DNA from: Thermodesulfobacteriota bacterium
Lineage (GTDB): Bacteria; Desulfobacterota; DSM-4660; Desulfatiglandales; HGW-15
Length of the DNA: 6,531 nt
Assembly (NCBI GenBank): GCA_025454125.1
Contig: JALOPA010000114.1
Coordinates: 1-6,531 of the forward strand
Reading direction: 5' to 3'
The position numbers were made by a program, and so were the translations under genes. Within the stretch, counting starts at the first letter, position 1. Each line of letters opens with the position of its first letter. The notes beneath the pieces are model-generated. The model saw only the letters and a program-made list of their open reading frames with translations. It had not been told where the DNA came from and ran no database searches. This document shows, in pieces, positions 74-6,480 of the stretch.

Positions 74-265
74 AAGAGCGTAGAGCAAATAAAACAAAGA
101 AAAGAGCTTAGAACCTTTCGACTGGCTCGCTTCGAGATCGTCAGGGTCTGCAACAGGATCTCCGACATAGAGCAAAGAGCTGAGAGTCGGGACCTCAAAC
201 ACAGCGCCGTTTGCCTTCGCTCTTTTACTCTGAGTTCCCTGCTCTATGCTCTACGCTTCTTACGA
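74..265. repeat. Degenerate heptad array, locus 1 (hairpin-forming intergenic repeat)
   Basis: This fills most of the 235-bp spacer between the tRNA-Leu and the end of radC. Purine-rich seven-base units run on the plus strand at 74-115 (AAGAGCG, TAGAGCA, ... AAGAGCT, TAGAACC) and 166-200 (CATAGAG, CAAAGAG, CTGAGAG). Complementary pyrimidine-rich units run at 227-261 (ACTCTGA, GTTCCCT, GCTCTAT, GCTCTAC, GCTTCTT). Positions 166-187 pair with 227-248 at 18 of 22 positions, including a perfect 9-bp outer stem (166-174 with 240-248). Positions 77-87 are a perfect 11-bp inverted repeat of 247-257. The section 116-165 shows no obvious heptad pattern. No T-run follows the hairpin on either strand, so it is not a classical intrinsic terminator. 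No convincing gene lies in 61-295. Confidence 0.75.
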
Positions 266-295
266 TATTTATTCTCATTTTTTTCCGAAATGCTG

Positions 296-1036
296 TCAAG
301 GGCTAACAAAACCCTGGAAGGCCCGGTGGAACTCCTTGATGAAGGTTTGGATCAGCCCGTCATCGGCAAAACTGTAGTAGGTGTTGTGGCCGACGATCAC
401 ATGGTCGAGGACCTGGATCATGAGGAGCTGGCTGGCCCATACGAGATCTCTGGTCAGTTTTCGATCTTCTGCCGAGGGAGAAGGATCCCCGGACGGGTGA
501 TTGTGGACAAACACAAGCGCTGCTGCTTTGCTCTCCAAGGCCTGGGTCATGATTTCCCTCGGATACACGGCGCTGCCCGTGAGGCTCCCCAGGAACACGT
601 CCTGATCTGCGATCAATTCATTCTTGCGGTTGAGGTAGAGCACCTTGAAGACTTCCCTCTTGAGGTCTCGCATAGAATGAAACAAATAGTCAAATACCGC
701 TTTGGAGGAACCGAAGAAATTCTTGCTTCTCACCGCGTCCCGCAGGTACCTGCCTGCGACGTGATGAACGAGGTTCAGGTAGAGGGCGTTCTTGGGGCCG
801 ATGCCTTTAATCTCCTTCAGCTTGGCGATAGGGGCCGAGAGAACGCCGGAGAGGGTTCCGAATTTTTTCAACGCCTCCCGCGCCTGAAGCTTCACGTCCT
901 TCCGGGGAGTGCCGAGGGTCAGGAGAAATTCCACGACTTCCTCGTCGGAGAAGCGGTCGAGACCGCCTTCTTCGAACTTGTCCCGAAGCCTCTGCCGATG
1001 ACCTTCACCGCGATTTTGCCAGTCTTCTTTTTCCAT
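296..1036 (-). CDS. radC: RadC family protein (UPF0758), JAB/JAMM-type putative metalloprotein
   Basis: The gene encodes 246 residues, near the usual length of the family. The N-terminal part resembles the UPF0758 helical domain, with a helix-hairpin-helix-like segment around residues 76-90 (KGIGPKNALYL). The C-terminal JAB/MPN-type domain shows the zinc-site pattern: Glu128, then His178-Asn-His180-Pro-Ser182-Gly, then Asp191, fitting the JAMM arrangement (E, HxH, S, D). The motif is intact, so a metal site is expected. Historically the name was tied to radiation sensitivity, but the molecular function of RadC proteins is unresolved; claims of a role in DNA repair are weak. The ATG at 1036 is preceded on the minus strand by AGGTGA at a suitable distance, which supports this start. 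The gene is divergent from mutL. Its leader probably includes the heptad array at 1055-1252. No clear minus-strand promoter or terminator was found. Confidence 0.93.
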   Translation of the reverse strand: MEKEDWQNRGEGHRQRLRDKFEEGGLDRFSDEEVVEFLLTLGTPRKDVKLQAREALKKFGTLSGVLSAPIAKLKEIKGIGPKNALYLNLVHHVAGRYLRDAVRSKNFFGSSKAVFDYLFHSMRDLKREVFKVLYLNRKNELIADQDVFLGSLTGSAVYPREIMTQALESKAAALVFVHNHPSGDPSPSAEDRKLTRDLVWASQLLMIQVLDHVIVGHNTYYSFADDGLIQTFIKEFHRAFQGFVSP

Positions 1037-1054
1037 GAGTCACCTGCCAGTCAC

Positions 1055-1252
1055 GACCGCCGACTACGGACCGCCGACGGCTGATAAACAGATAACGACG
1101 ACCGACCACCAAGAGCTGAGAGCTGGAACCTCAAAACCAAGTCATTCGCCTTTAATTGTTTGCTCTAGGCTCCCTGCTCTATGCTCCCTGCTCTTAGCTC
1201 TACGCTTCTTACGACCACCGACGGACAACGGACTGCGGACAAGTGACAACGT
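1055..1252. repeat. Degenerate heptad array, locus 2 (largest; between radC and mutL)
   Basis: Seven-base units stay in one phase from 1055 to 1138 (12 units). The first eight are mostly of the form GACNNNN (GACCGCC at 1055 and 1069, GACTACG at 1062, GACGACC at 1097, GACCACC at 1104), followed by AAGAGCT, GAGAGCT, GGAACCT and CAAAACC. After 23 bp without the pattern, a second phased run of 13 units covers 1162-1252. It has seven GCTC/GCTT-headed units (GCTCTAG, GCTCCCT, GCTCTAT, GCTCCCT, GCTCTTA, GCTCTAC, GCTTCTT), then units of an ACNNCGG type. The AGAGCT units pair with the GCTC units: 1112-1123 against 1190-1201 is 11 of 12. The outer GAC-type units lie in the same orientation on both sides, so they are direct, not inverted. 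Short open frames across this region are by-products of the repeat. From 1253 to the mutL promoter I see nothing notable. Confidence 0.8.
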
Positions 1253-1412: not shown

Positions 1413-3128
1413 ATGGGCTTGATCAGGATTCTTTCAGAAAAGGTGGCCTCTCAGATTGCGGCAGGGGAGGTGGTGGAGCGGCCGGCCTCGGTGGCGCGCG
1501 AGCTCATCGACAACAGCATCGATGCAGGGTCCACCCGTATCCTGGTCAAGATCGAGAACGGCGGGAGGAACCTGATCCGCGTCATGGACAATGGAGCGGG
1601 CATGGATCGGGATGACCTGCTCTTGTGCGCCGAGCGGCATGCCACAAGCAAAATCAGCGAGATTGAGGATCTCTTCAGCGTCCGCACCCTCGGGTTCAGA
1701 GGGGAGGCCGTGCCCAGCATTGCAGCGGTCTCCCGAATGGTGATCACCTCCCGCACGAACGAACACATGGGTGGTTTCCGGCTGAGGATCGAGGGCGGAA
1801 AGATAAAGGAAATCGTGGAGACGGGCGCTCCGGTCGGTACCACCGTGGAGGTGAAGGATCTCTTTTTCAACACTCCGGCCCGGAAGAAATTCCTGCGGAG
1901 CGCGGCTACGGAGACCGATCACATCGTGGACACCCTGTCGCGAATCGCTCTTCCCTTCACGGCGCTCTCCTTCAGGCTGGATGACAGGGACAAGACTCTG
2001 CTCAGTCTTCCCTCAGTGGACAATGACGTGAGCAGGCTTTCAGCCCTTTTCGGGCACGAGGTGGCTGGTTCCTTGGTGCCGCTGGAGCGGGAGGTCGAGG
2101 GCCTGGGCCTGAGCGGATACCTATCCCCGCCGGAGTGGGACAGGGCCAGGGGAGATCACCTGTTCGTGTATGTGAACCGAAGAAGCGTACGGGAAAGGCT
2201 TCTGACGCACGCGGTTATCGAAGGCTATGGGTCGCGCCTCATGAAGGGGCGTTATCCCTATGCCGTCATCTTCATCGAAATCGATCCTTCTCAGGTCGAC
2301 GTGAACGTGCATCCTGCCAAGCAGGAAGTCCGATTTCACCAAAGTCGCCTGGTTCATGAAGCCGTGAAAACGGCGGTGGATGAAACCCTGAGGCAGAAAG
2401 CCGCCAGGCTTTTCGAAGTGCCTGCCTCCTTCGTTAAGAGCGCGGGAGAACCGGTCGGAGCCATTGCTGAGACCATGGGCTGGTATTCGGCCGTTCCCGC
2501 TGAGCGAAGGGCCCCCCGCGAGCCGGAGCCTCAGGTTCCCCTGATCAACAAAGAAACGCCGGTCGTTCTCGGTCAGCTCAAAGAGACCTACATCCTCTGC
2601 GAGACCAGAGAGGGGCTTCTCCTCGTGGATCAGCATGCGGCGCATGAAAGAAGAGTCTTCGAGAAGCTGAAGAAATCCTATGACTCCGCTGCGCTGGAGT
2701 GCCAGCCTTTCCTGATTCCTCCCAGGGTGGAGTTTTCCCCTTCCGAGACCAGAACGATTGTGAAGAGGCTCGGAGATCTCTCGCAACTGGGCATAAGCCT
2801 CGAGCCCTTCGGCGGCGGGACTTTCCTGGTTCGCTCTGTTCCGAGCCTTCTGGTCGATGTTCAATGGGAATCCTTTTTGCGTGAAATCCTGCCTCTCCTG
2901 GAAGAGCAGGGGGCTGTGAAAGGGGACCAGATGGTCGAGCGGCTTCTCGCGCTCATGGCTTGCCACGGCGCCATCCGCGCAGGCCAGCGGTTATCCAGGG
3001 AAGAGATGGTCTCCCTGGTGGAGCAGTTGGGTGAAGCGGAGGTGCCCACGAACTGTCCCCACGGCCGTCCCGTGCTCAAGAGGCTGAGCTTCTATGAGAT
3101 AGAGAAGATGTTCCGGAGGGTTGTGTAA
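1413..3128 (+). CDS. mutL: DNA mismatch repair protein MutL, endonuclease-type
   Basis: MutL links mismatch recognition by MutS to strand removal. The N-terminal GHKL ATPase is complete: QIAAGEVVERP (14-24), catalytic Glu30, Asn34, DNGAG (59-63), HATSK (76-80), GFRGEA (94-99), and the second-subdomain lysine in NVHPAKQEVRF (298-308). One variation is Asp33 where Escherichia MutL has Glu32. The C-terminal dimerisation domain starts near 385 (GQLKETYIL). It carries the nicking motif DQHA-x2-E-x4-E at 406-417, plus ACHGAIRA (516-523) and CPHGRP (548-553). Compared with Bacillus MutL, the metal ligands would be His408, Glu412, Cys517, Cys548 and His550. QPFLIP (431-436) fits the sliding-clamp-binding pattern Qxx[LI]xP. 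At 571 residues it is on the short side, and the interdomain linker is only about 50 residues. An in-frame stop (1389-1391) rules out an upstream start. The ribosome site is weak. A promoter lies at 1320-1347 and miaA follows. Confidence 0.98.
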   Translation: MGLIRILSEKVASQIAAGEVVERPASVARELIDNSIDAGSTRILVKIENGGRNLIRVMDNGAGMDRDDLLLCAERHATSKISEIEDLFSVRTLGFRGEAVPSIAAVSRMVITSRTNEHMGGFRLRIEGGKIKEIVETGAPVGTTVEVKDLFFNTPARKKFLRSAATETDHIVDTLSRIALPFTALSFRLDDRDKTLLSLPSVDNDVSRLSALFGHEVAGSLVPLEREVEGLGLSGYLSPPEWDRARGDHLFVYVNRRSVRERLLTHAVIEGYGSRLMKGRYPYAVIFIEIDPSQVDVNVHPAKQEVRFHQSRLVHEAVKTAVDETLRQKAARLFEVPASFVKSAGEPVGAIAETMGWYSAVPAERRAPREPEPQVPLINKETPVVLGQLKETYILCETREGLLLVDQHAAHERRVFEKLKKSYDSAALECQPFLIPPRVEFSPSETRTIVKRLGDLSQLGISLEPFGGGTFLVRSVPSLLVDVQWESFLREILPLLEEQGAVKGDQMVERLLALMACHGAIRAGQRLSREEMVSLVEQLGEAEVPTNCPHGRPVLKRLSFYEIEKMFRRVV

Positions 3129-3129
3129 C

Positions 3130-3227
3130 AGGACTGAGGGATGAGCGATGAGGACTGAGTGGATTTCCAAAAACGCCCTTCTTTGTCCTGCTCAGTCCTC
3201 AGTCCTCGTGACTCATCACTCTCACAG
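3130..3227. repeat. Degenerate heptad array, locus 3 (hairpin-forming; between mutL and miaA)
   Basis: The array begins one base after the mutL stop codon. Units on the left arm are AGGACTG (3130), AGGGATG (3137), AGCGATG (3144), AGGACTG (3151) and AGTGGAT (3158). After about 20 bp the right arm runs in phase: CAGTCCT (3193 and 3200), CGTGACT (3207), CATCACT (3214), CTCACAG (3221). The right arm is the approximate reverse complement of the left. AGGACTGAG at 3151-3159 pairs perfectly with CTCAGTCCT at 3191-3199 or 3198-3206, and AGGGATG/AGTGATG align at six of seven. The unit sequence differs from loci 1 and 2, but period and arm symmetry are the same. No T-run follows, so termination between mutL and miaA is not evident. 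Confidence 0.75.
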
Positions 3228-3279
3228 GCGCCTTTCATGCCGGGGAATTTGCATCTGATCGAGCGAAGAACGGACTGAG

Positions 3280-4209
3280 ATGGCCGTAGAAAAGGAAAAA
3301 GTGGTGGTGATTGCCGGGCCCACGGCCTCGGGGAAGAGCGGGCTTGCGGTGGATCTCTCGCTCCGCCTTCAGGGCGAAATCGTCAATGCCGACTCCATGC
3401 AGGTCTACCGGTACATGGACGTGGGCACGGCCAAACCCTCTCCAGCGGAGCGGAGCTCGGTCCCTCATCACCTCCTGGACGTTGTCGACCCGGACCAGGA
3501 ATTCAATGCCGCCCTCTATCGCTCCCTTGCCGTGCCCGCGATCCGGGACGTCCTGGCGAGAGGGAAGGTGTGTTTCGTGGTGGGAGGCACAGGGTTGTAC
3601 ATTAAGACATTGCTGGGAGGGCTTCTCCAGTGCCCGGCTGGGGATCAGGGCCTGCGCCGGGAGCTGCGGGATCAGGCGGAGTCCCAGGGACTCGACGCCC
3701 TGTACCGGAGGCTGGAACAACTCGATCCCTTGTCCGCGAAGAAGATCCATGCTCACGACAGGGTGAGGATCCTCAGAGCCTTGGAGATCATCGAGCTCAC
3801 GAAAGGGCCGCTCTCCGCCCTGGTCCAAGGCCACGGATTTCAGGACTCCCCTTTTCAGGCTCTCAAAATTTGTTTGCAAATCGACCGCGAGGAGCTTTAT
3901 CATCGCATCAACGAAAGGGGTCTCCTCATGGTCGAAAGAGGCCTTGTCGAAGAGACGAAGACCCTCTTGACCATGGGATACTCTCCTGATCTAAAGCCCA
4001 TGAAGTCCTTGGGTTACAGGCATGCCGTGCGCTACCTCGAAGGTCGTTACGATCGAGAGGAGATGGTTCGGGAGCTTCAGGCGGACACGCGGCGATATGC
4101 AAAAAGACAGTTGACCTGGTTCAGAGCAGATCCTTCCATCCATTGGGTAGACCCTCATAGGAATGAACACCTTGTTGAAACGATCACCTCGTTTGTTCAG
4201 GACCCTTGA
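3280..4209 (+). CDS. miaA: tRNA dimethylallyltransferase MiaA
   Basis: MiaA transfers a dimethylallyl group from DMAPP to N6 of adenosine 37 in tRNAs that read codons beginning with U. It is the first step toward ms2i6A and acts in the cytoplasm. The 309-residue product has the family's usual length and motifs: P-loop GPTASGKS (13-20), DSMQVYR (38-44) with the catalytic aspartate, GTAKP (49-53), GGTGLYI (102-108), HDRVRILRALEI (159-170), SLGYRHAV (243-250), and TRRYAKRQLTWFR (270-282). The family often shows GYRQ where this protein has GYRH. The ATG at 3280 has only a poor ribosome site, but an in-frame stop at 3256-3258 rules out an upstream start and the P-loop lies at the normal distance. 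The neighbour mutL matches a common bacterial gene order; hfq, often next to miaA, is not here. The 3' end overlaps the next gene by 47 nt. Confidence 0.97.
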   Translation: MAVEKEKVVVIAGPTASGKSGLAVDLSLRLQGEIVNADSMQVYRYMDVGTAKPSPAERSSVPHHLLDVVDPDQEFNAALYRSLAVPAIRDVLARGKVCFVVGGTGLYIKTLLGGLLQCPAGDQGLRRELRDQAESQGLDALYRRLEQLDPLSAKKIHAHDRVRILRALEIIELTKGPLSALVQGHGFQDSPFQALKICLQIDREELYHRINERGLLMVERGLVEETKTLLTMGYSPDLKPMKSLGYRHAVRYLEGRYDREEMVRELQADTRRYAKRQLTWFRADPSIHWVDPHRNEHLVETITSFVQDP

Positions 4210-5050
4210 GCGGCCACGCGGTCTTCCTCTGGGAAGGGTGCTGCTGTTTTTCTGGACAGCCGGTATCCTCGTCCTCACCGGGACGAACGGGGTTTTTGCA
4301 GAGACCTACATCCAATCCCTTGAGCGTGGAAAAGTGGACTGGACCAACGGGATCGTGGAGGTCTCGGCCACAGGGATGCCGCCGGCCCATGCTCTTAGCC
4401 CTGCCCAAGGACGGGCACTCGCAGAGACCGAAGCGGAGACCCTTGCCCGGGGCGAACTGATCGGGCTCCTTCAGGCGATACGGGTGGACTCCAAAAGCAC
4501 GGTCAAAGAGGTCCTCGACCAGCAGCGCGCCGGTGATCAGCTCGTGGCCGCAGTCCTGAGGGATTCCCATGTGGTGGAGAAGTCCGTTTCGCCCAACGGG
4601 GCCGTGAGGCTCATGGTGGCGATGAAGTTGAACGGGCCCTTCGGCGACCTGGTCCTCCCGAAAACCATCGCGAGCATCCAGGCGGTGGAGCAGTCGCAGA
4701 AAAAGGAGGAGCCGTTCACCGGGCTCATTGTGGATTGTCGGGGAATCCCTCTCAGCCCTGCAATGGCGCCCATGATCATCGGGGAAGACGGACAGGTGGT
4801 TTACGGAACAGCGCACGTCAGCCGTGACCAGGCTCTGGAACGAGGGGTGGCTGCTTACGCGAGAGGGTTGGCCAAGTCGCGGGACAACCCTCGGGTGGGC
4901 CTCAAACCGCTGATCGTGAAAGGGTTGAGAGCGGCAAAGGGCAGGCCCTGCGACATTGTCATCAGCAACGCCGACGCGGGAAAAATCAAGGGGGCCGGGA
5001 GCAACCTCAGTTTTCTTCACCGAGGCAAAGTGCTGTTTGTGATGGAGTAA
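4163..5050 (+). CDS. Exported protein of unknown function, LPP20/FlgT-like
   Basis: Function is not known. The 295-residue product opens with a long basic N-region and a hydrophobic stretch (about 25-40) ending in GVFA before Glu47, which fits a signal peptidase I site, so export across the inner membrane is expected. The mature part starts with TYIQSLERGKVDWTNGIVEVSATG, then a helix rich in Ala and Glu (83-106) followed by strands. This pattern recalls the LPP20/FlgT N-terminal fold (inferred from sequence style, not searched). A second segment (185-295) contains GLIVDCRGIPLSPAMAP, a VYG stretch, NPRVGLKPLIVK, DIVISNADAGKI and a hydrophobic end (KVLFVME), which look like conserved blocks. 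There is no lipobox. The start is uncertain: ATG 4163 has AGGA immediately next to it, and GTG 4238 would remove the basic N-region. It overlaps miaA by 47 nt in another frame and precedes the TPR lipoprotein by 5 nt, so the two may act together. Confidence 0.8.
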   Translation: MNTLLKRSPRLFRTLERPRGLPLGRVLLFFWTAGILVLTGTNGVFAETYIQSLERGKVDWTNGIVEVSATGMPPAHALSPAQGRALAETEAETLARGELIGLLQAIRVDSKSTVKEVLDQQRAGDQLVAAVLRDSHVVEKSVSPNGAVRLMVAMKLNGPFGDLVLPKTIASIQAVEQSQKKEEPFTGLIVDCRGIPLSPAMAPMIIGEDGQVVYGTAHVSRDQALERGVAAYARGLAKSRDNPRVGLKPLIVKGLRAAKGRPCDIVISNADAGKIKGAGSNLSFLHRGKVLFVME

Positions 5051-6364: not shown

Positions 6365-6439
6365 AGGCACGTAGCTCAGGGGGAGAGCACTACCCTGACA
6401 CGGTAGGGGTCAAGAGTTCAAATCTCTTCGTGCCTACCA
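6365..6439 (+). tRNA. tRNA-Val (anticodon GAC), CCA encoded
   Basis: All arms fold. The acceptor AGGCACG (6365-6371) pairs with CGTGCCT (6429-6435), followed by A73 and an encoded CCA (6437-6439). The D-stem is GCTC/GAGC. The anticodon stem CTACC/GGTAG encloses the loop CTGACAC with anticodon GAC at 6397-6399, reading GUC (and GUU by wobble). The T-arm is AAGAG/CTCTT around TTCAAAT. The gene is 75 nt long with a short variable loop. It has its own likely promoter upstream and a strong terminator directly downstream, so it can be expressed as a single-gene unit. Confidence 0.96.
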
Positions 6440-6448
6440 GGACAAAAA

Positions 6449-6480
6449 AAGAGGCTGGTTTAAACCAGCCTCTTCTTTTT
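6449..6480 (+). terminator. Rho-independent terminator after tRNA-Val, probably bidirectional
   Basis: Positions 6449-6474 are a perfect 26-bp palindrome (13-bp arms, AAGAGGCTGG... with TTTAAA at the centre). CTTTTT follows at 6475-6480, giving a strong intrinsic terminator on the plus strand. Seven A's (6444-6450) run into the 5' arm, so the minus-strand transcript also gains a hairpin followed by a T-run, and the site should stop transcription from both directions. Confidence 0.93.

Follow-up and report, generated by a model that had tools for sequence, protein, structure and literature searches.

Degenerate heptanucleotide arrays in bacterial intergenic spacers: period, palindromic arrangement and strand polarity

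Introduction

The spacer between radC and mutL on contig JALOPA010000114.1 (GenBank assembly GCA_025454125.1, Thermodesulfobacteriota bacterium) contains a 7-bp periodicity at positions 1055-1252, in which only a few positions of each unit are conserved. Cyanobacterial STRR heptanucleotides have the same period and consist of near-exact copies. The question raised by the locus is how a period can be kept while the sequence is not, and whether such an array is a coded element or the product of a process acting on the DNA. The window (the whole stretch of 6,531 nt) was analysed together with related genomes.

Results

The periodic region of the radC-mutL spacer

The 7-bp period was borne out. 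Lag-7 identity across 1055-1252 was 0.52 (z 8.3), a value reached by none of 1000 dinucleotide-preserving shuffles, with weaker harmonics at lag 14 (0.48, z 6.8) and lag 21 (0.44, z 5.4). The two runs were each significant alone (1055-1138, z 4.7; 1162-1252, z 6.7). Lag-7 signal was not significant in two controls, part of mutL (p 0.39) and the remainder of the spacer, 1253-1412 (p 0.63). The top 198-nt sliding lag-7 score in the window was 0.52, starting at 1052, and the maximum for starts below 701 or above 1400 was 0.39.

The single phase-locked array that had been proposed resolved into four abutting sub-arrays (GAC, AGAGC, GCTC and GAC; Table 1). On the left, GAC recurred at 1055, 1062, 1069, 1076, 1097 and 1104, with two poor units in between. 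GCTC started at 1162, 1169, 1176, 1183, 1190 and 1197 with three variable positions per unit, and five such units in succession (GCTCNNNx5) occurred twice in the window and not at all in 200 window shuffles. At the word changes, 1111 and 1211, 2 of 7 positions matched in each case, which is approximately chance. The right GAC sub-array includes a 4-nt phase step, the motif moving from 1220 to 1224, and the left and right runs lie in different registers (1055 mod 7 = 5, 1162 mod 7 = 0). Because of these three features, the original prediction of twelve and then thirteen units in strict phase with drifting identity was not demonstrated inside the window; drift with a kept period was instead found in other genomes, where similarity decays with unit distance. 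Nor does a kept phase with changing sequence, as had been argued, set the region apart from ordinary tandem repeats. Gain and loss of 7-nt units combined with point mutation gives that pattern, and since gaps of 7, 7 and 14 nt were seen, an ordinary tandem-repeat process is a candidate.

With neighbouring units matching at 2 to 6 of 7 positions and the lag-7 identity given above, the region does not consist of near-exact tandem copies. Nor is it a CRISPR, as repeat searches of 1-1412 and of the whole window gave no identical repeats with spacers, or a described RNA family, as Rfam 15 at gathering thresholds matched only a tRNA (6365-6436) in the window.

Table 1. Heptad features of the window and the genes that flank the central spacer.
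Feature	Coordinates	Strand	Evidence or remark
Second AGAGC/GCTC palindrome	158-266		Gap beside radC 3' end; arms 166-187 and 227-248
radC	296-1036	-	ORF; Pfam RadC E 1.5e-43; left neighbour of arrays
Left GACNNNN sub-array	1052-1110	+	Lag 7 0.52, p 0.001 (2000 shuffles)
AGAGC heptads, 5' arm of inverted pair	1109-1138	+	Lag 7 0.61, 0/2000 shuffles
Non-periodic stretch between arms	1139-1161		Direct reading
GCTCNNN heptads, 3' arm of inverted pair	1162-1210	+	1159-1210 lag 7 0.60, p 0.0005 (2000 shuffles)
Right GAC sub-array	1211-1252	+	1209-1252 lag 7 0.57, p 0.001 (2000 shuffles)
mutL	1413-3128	+	ORF; Pfam MutL_C E 1.9e-43; right neighbour of arrays
Different heptad palindrome (GGACTGAG.../...CTCAGTCC)	3130-3221		Between mutL and miaA

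A sigma-70-like site at 1320-1347, upstream of mutL, matches the consensus at 10 of 12 positions, a consensus match only. Other Pfam names in the window were IPP transferase (miaA), a TPR protein and CDP-alcohol phosphatidyltransferase. A 295-aa protein (4163-5047) gave no Pfam match, and its peptide patterns found no relative in the genome contigs. The MutL search returned 80 loci at 35-43% identity; the best match among the 247 genomes of the phylum sample was 55% (G095). By eye, positions 1-60 resemble the cut end of a minus-strand tRNA-Leu gene, which the tRNA search did not call, and a perfect palindrome with a T-rich end at 6450-6480, directly after the tRNA-Val gene, resembles a terminator.

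Palindromes and a second copy in the window

The AGAGC and GCTC sub-arrays are mutually inverted, a relation overlooked in the original prediction, so that the centre of 1055-1252 is a palindrome with periodic arms. The GAC arrays that flank it both have the same orientation. Two further heptad arrays in the window had also been overlooked, the palindromes at 158-266 and 3130-3221, bringing the word types to GAC, AGAGC/GCTC and ACTGAG.

The arms of the 158-266 copy are 82% complementary over 22 nt. This copy is related to the central palindrome on both sides: 1109-1138 matches 175-199 (88% over 25 nt), and 228-265 is 87% alike to 1177-1214. Part of the stretch between the arms, 1139-1161, is alike as well. 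Compared with 1162-1214, the right arm of the second copy lacks exactly 14 nt, that is two units, the sequences flanking the gap matching at 21 of 26 and 13 of 13 positions. In the 3130-3221 palindrome, 24-nt arms are 83% complementary, and 3125-3232 has a lag-7 z of 4.2. Folding gave z -3.9 for 3125-3225 and only -1.5 for both AGAGC/GCTC copies. The G-rich strand faces into the spacer at 1111-1210 (AGAGC, then GCTC), 158-266 and 3130-3221, which are convergent pairs; the outer GAC arrays form no such pair.

Occurrence, period and location in sampled genomes

GCTCNNNx5 was found in 25 of 247 Desulfobacterota-phylum genomes, and the same pattern read backwards in 8, by our count of the listing. 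Five genomes (G254, G145, G268, G108 and G283) and 120 viral loci were chosen for having this pattern; G073 and G110, congeners of G145, also contain it. Spacers were approximate, defined by greedy ORFs of at least 100 aa. The spacer lag-7 excess was 5.7 percentage points in G145 (z 26) and 2.5 in G254 (z 13). It was 0.8 in G268 (z 5) and 0.3 in G002 (z 2), in both of which other lags were larger. An unselected 333-kb sample of G002 had no arrays. On a few contigs of G002 (L237-L240), very long GCTACCC, GCTCCTT and GCTCCCC arrays were observed, for which clustering or contamination is possible.

Seven was the best period for 86 of 133 calls in G145, 45 of 64 in G073, 15 of 17 in G110, 24 of 43 in G254, all 5 in G268 and 9 of 11 in G108. 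The one call in G283 was of period 14, and there was none in G002. Period 9 came second in G145 (31 calls), and periods 8 and 10 were called in G254 (7 and 4). Examples of drifting arrays with these other periods are L293:15866 and L305:11028 in spacers of G145 (period 9) and L254:9514 and L260:14218 in G254 (periods 8 and 10); steps other than 7 thus occur, though less often. Among the 80 MutL loci, which were unselected for arrays, period 7 accounted for only 6 of 29 calls, equal to period 3; array-rich genomes are therefore a minority.

Arrays were concentrated in spacers, with 147, 109 and 56 per 100 kb of spacer in G145, G073 and G254 against 4.4, 7.0 and 1.9 per 100 kb of ORF, a 15- to 33-fold difference in density in these genomes. 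No type of spacer was preferred (divergent 29/158, tandem 93/528, convergent 22/152), and tandem spacers had no sense bias of arrays (68 vs 62). Promoters, terminators and Rho sites are therefore disfavoured, and no regulatory role of the arrays was seen in this analysis.

Comparison of congeners and orthologous arrays

G145 (C13) and G073 (C189) share a collinear block of 70 kb. It contains 18 spacer pairs, of which four were dropped for length and 14 compared. By our count, an array was present in G145 only in seven, in G073 only in one, in both in three and in neither in three; thus 3 of 11 array-bearing orthologous spacers had arrays in both congeners, with words that differed by eye. Nine rows of array matches were listed, one array with a 7-nt gap and a low-identity match filling two rows each. 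A single gap of exactly 7 nt lay inside each of two orthologous arrays, and the one that filled a single row also had a 32-nt gap between its arms. One further array had replaced units and no gap, and another was consistent with an extra unit. Two matches were weak: a doubtful one, interrupted by gaps of 12 nt and 1 nt, and one of low identity with many small gaps. One orthologue pair retained GGT while other positions varied.

A loop-bearing heptad palindrome was found at L367:15988-16265 (G145) and L366:1655-1794 (G110), with a related form from L367:18399 onward (G145). In the orthologous G145/G110 pair, the right arm differs by one 7-nt unit and the loop by 32 nt. Also observed in spacers of G145 and G110 were heptad arms beside or around other dispersed palindromes, of the types GTCATTCCGG...CCGGAATCCAG and GTCATCCTGAGC...GAAGGATCTC (e.g. 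L305:11028-11471 and L357:3025-3380), an arrangement that looks like hairpin elements nested within one another.

These loop-bearing forms, and the arms and partial intervening stretch common to the two window copies, would be expected if a MITE- or REP-like palindrome, ending in the heptad arms, were dispersed by moving as a whole; Y1 transposase domains were found in 13 of 13 genomes tested. However, genomes lacking the GCTC pattern had these domains just as often (G190, for example, with 17 matches), and array words vary within one genome. An 18-mer common to both window copies had three viral contig matches, none of them adjoining a lag-7 array. No non-array motif was prominent near arrays in G254, G145 and G268, where the most frequent k-mers were dominated by array words and A/T runs. 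Movement as a unit is thus considered unlikely. In G254, AAAAACAG occurred in 7 of 26 array spacers vs 5 of 176 others. A single common loop motif was rejected, AACAGAT and CAAGTC having seemed shared by eye only.

Words, drift and indels

The genus of G145 used 203 of 1172 canonical heptads in its arrays, so there is no fixed template. Words common to this genus and G254 numbered 21 vs 13 expected from composition (p 0.007), and other pairs were weaker. A shared lexicon was rejected; 1 of 7 window words was common to the G145 genus vs 1.5 expected.

Similarity between units decayed with distance. For 20 arrays of G145, each 70 nt or longer, identity at unit distances 1 to 9 was 0.69, 0.62, 0.55, 0.49, 0.45, 0.41, 0.38, 0.35 and 0.27. 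Across 70 runs without junctions (488 units) in the genus of G145, identity fell from 0.76 to 0.52 over seven units, in comparison with 0.75 to 0.30 in simulations of pure drift and a flat 0.73 for a fixed core. As the decay falls between these two, units copy their neighbours yet retain part of an older word. Elsewhere, junction-free runs decayed from 0.78 to 0.46 in G254 and only from 0.87 to 0.79 in the viral loci; decay was approximately absent in G108, G283 and G268 together (0.74 to 0.73, five runs). The clearest drifting array by eye was L262:6329-6561. In three of four genomes, G145, G073 and G110 but not G254, variation was spread over the seven positions slightly less evenly than under a copy-with-errors null. 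This unevenness, and the ancestral word retained beyond neighbour copying, suggest that some selection on a core may occur.

Single-base indels were rare. Seven were called per 3397 adjacent-unit substitutions (G145 four, G073 two, G254 one, G110 none), an indel:substitution ratio near 0.01 by matched simulation in the four genomes, and viral arrays gave 10 calls per 1922 substitutions, near 0.05. The two arms of a palindrome share phase (0.57-0.66 vs 0.26) but not register. Selection for a hairpin was rejected, the best register scoring 0.09 vs 0.096 in a unit-shuffled control.

By analogy with the proposal for inverted heptanucleotide sites in Geobacter metallireducens (PMC2700814, from the portion of the paper available), the arrays might be selected sites for an oligomeric DNA- or RNA-binding protein that needs a short core every 7 nt. 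In the window, units in which GCTC is conserved and the other three positions vary would fit such a protein, as would the part of the core retained with distance and the GGT of the orthologue pair. The 203 heptads in one genus argue against one regulator, however, as do the lack of spacer-type preference and sense bias, the rarity of arrays common to a congener and arms without register; on this evidence, a role as binding sites is quite unlikely.

Strand polarity

Arrays in spacers were oriented with respect to the genes. The G-rich strand ran toward the spacer centre in 194 and away in 91, the corresponding counts being 121 vs 53 for spacers with a single array and 154 vs 68 with one vote per spacer. 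Array-free spacers of G145 and G254 had no G-strand contrast. The polar property was purine content, since A over T (185 vs 103) followed G over C (194 vs 91) and keto content did not (130 vs 155). At 3' gene ends the sense strand of the array was G-rich in 111 vs 48, and at 5' ends it was C-rich in 83 vs 43. Among 112 neighbouring arrays within 150 nt of each other, a G-rich array preceded a C-rich one in 57, the reverse was found in 10 and the two were alike in 45 (L201-L235, L241-L252, L313-L352 and L400-L402 were excluded from these counts). The 41 inverted pairs from ten sets agreed, the G-richer arm being 5' in 36 and the purine-richer arm in 34; by locus, the count was 26 vs 3 with one tie.

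An artefact of ORF calling was considered: as no stop codon contains C, arrays with a G-rich sense strand might be over-represented at 3' ends. The same direction was found at 5' ends (43 vs 83) and among neighbouring arrays, whose count does not depend on ORFs (57 vs 10). The polarity was clear only within 30 nt of a gene and not significant farther away (35 vs 25 and 40 vs 27), and it was also not significant in divergent spacers alone (37 vs 25). For array hairpins with strict ungapped stems it was not significant (12 vs 5 by G/C, 7 vs 8 by purine). For hairpins elsewhere than in arrays, there was no G/C polarity (87 vs 76) but a purine excess (106 vs 71, p 0.01). G145 contributed the largest share (78 vs 25), and the inverted pairs of G110 ran opposite (1 vs 2).

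A canonical quadruplex motif was present in 23 of 337 arrays, and (G3+N1-7)x4 was absent from the four window stretches. When only arrays without GGG or CCC were counted, the polarity remained (65 vs 38, p 0.01). These counts bear on whether the arrays could have been selected at gene ends for a transcribed or folded structure, such as a terminator, a Rho-utilisation site or a G-quadruplex. The arms can pair, as in the fold of 3125-3225, and quadruplex formation in vitro by the G-rich heptamers of Xanthomonas is reported in the accessible part of PMC4692102. Against this, the folding of both AGAGC/GCTC copies was weak, neither convergent spacers nor the sense strand were preferred and the arms had no hairpin register; with so few quadruplex motifs and a polarity that does not depend on G-tracts, selection for structure is highly improbable.

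A purine strand running from the gene to the spacer centre on both sides is also the geometry of joined telomere-like ends. By analogy with the interstitial telomeric repeats of vertebrates (PMC7215372, in the section available), purine-rich heptads could have been added to both 3' ends of a spacer break, which were then joined. Pfam domains in 13 genomes were RVT_1 in 6, Ku in 1, Y1_Tnp in 13, IMS in 12 and PDDEXK_1 in 10; of these five families, only RVT_1 and Ku bear on a model. RVT_1 was matched in G231, G108 and G268 but not in G145, G073, G110, G254 and G119, and Ku was missing from 12 of the 13, all being genomes of unstated completeness. These gaps and the lack of a fixed word, hence of a fixed template, make break healing very unlikely.

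Discussion

On balance, the intergenic heptanucleotide arrays were probably built and turned over by a copying process at the DNA level, and are not a coded or regulatory element. A small fold-back palindrome would seed two arms, each of which would grow or shrink by slippage in whole 7-nt units, with point mutations causing the units to drift. Arrays would survive mainly in spacers because elsewhere genes would break. The length differences of exactly 7, 7 and 14 nt in three comparisons, one of them within the window, are consistent with such slippage. The palindromic seed is not directly visible, because the arms lack a base-by-base register. The available part of PMC4692102 cites a published guess that steps of 7 nt are favourable for the polymerase.

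In the array-rich relatives, neighbouring arrays are often on opposite strands with the purine-rich arm 5'. Slippage alone does not predict this polarity, and a further step is needed. Speculatively, a purine-rich nascent strand might fold back; PMC4666352, as far as its available text extends, describes purine-motif triplexes and the arrest of polymerases. A tentative and rather doubtful proposition is that palindromes of 7-nt period are laid down between bacterial genes by a strand-polar process that does not depend on the word, with the purine-rich strand running from gene to spacer on both sides. If true, one DNA transaction, purine nascent-strand fold-back or the healing of spacer breaks, would be the common source of the heptamer excess, and the quadruplex and regulator accounts of heptamers would become special cases.

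Comparison with known systems

The following comparisons refer to the available portions of the papers cited. Arrays that look like these should not be annotated as regulator sites or small RNAs by look alone. In G. metallireducens, which by name belongs to the same phylum-level group (Delta-proteobacteria), tandem heptanucleotides include five MTYCTGA units and four GGACCGG units, each class has one consensus and was predicted to be regulator sites or RNA elements, and class 3 is drawn as opposite-strand pairs (PMC2700814). The window resembles class 3 in geometry but not in its words, which are not the MTYCTGA units of that class.

REP/REPIN elements are recognised as a conserved palindrome family of 20-40 bp together with a RAYT Y1 transposase. 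Here, the array words were highly variable and the Y1 domains occurred whether or not a genome was array-rich. TAACTGA direct repeats of Beggiatoaceae, cyanobacteria and Bacteroidetes are likewise intergenic heptamers of unclear role (PMC4679880); unlike the window arrays, they are short, have one exact word and mostly lie directly upstream of start codons.

A close likeness is to the G-rich heptamers of Xanthomonas and Nostoc, which are heterogeneous 7-nt repeats, (GGGANTN)n, mostly intergenic and genome-wide, with lengths and units that vary between close species (PMC4692102). Two sites in convergent orientation were reported in 70 and 75 cases in Xanthomonas, and the gene-relative polarity in Xanthomonas and Nostoc is as here. 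The convergent pairs with the G-rich strand into the spacer, in the window and in the relatives, are thus shared. Heterogeneous heptamers with convergent pairs were already published for Xanthomonas (PMC4692102). There are also differences. Xanthomonas and Nostoc have one G-quadruplex word per genome with four G-tracts able to form a quadruplex, whereas many words per genome were found here and the window stretches lack such a motif; and PMC4692102 reports a deficit in divergent spacers, where none was found here. A word-independent polarity, mostly without quadruplex motifs, seems new relative to the published polarity of G-rich words, no title or abstract on it having been found in literature whose coverage took in few subscription papers.

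In the SPADE survey of 7006 prokaryotic genomes, tandem heptamers were the most abundant intergenic repeats, with unclear function (PMC6344855). The period and intergenic location are the same as here; degenerate, inverted or strand-polar arrays are not described in the available text of that survey. The form seen here matters because the heptamer excess came without a clear clue to its cause (PMC6344855). Being degenerate, many-worded, inverted and polar, this form argues against a specific sequence, quadruplexes, transcription direction or a fixed template as the cause, and leaves as the remaining option a mechanical process that can be tested.
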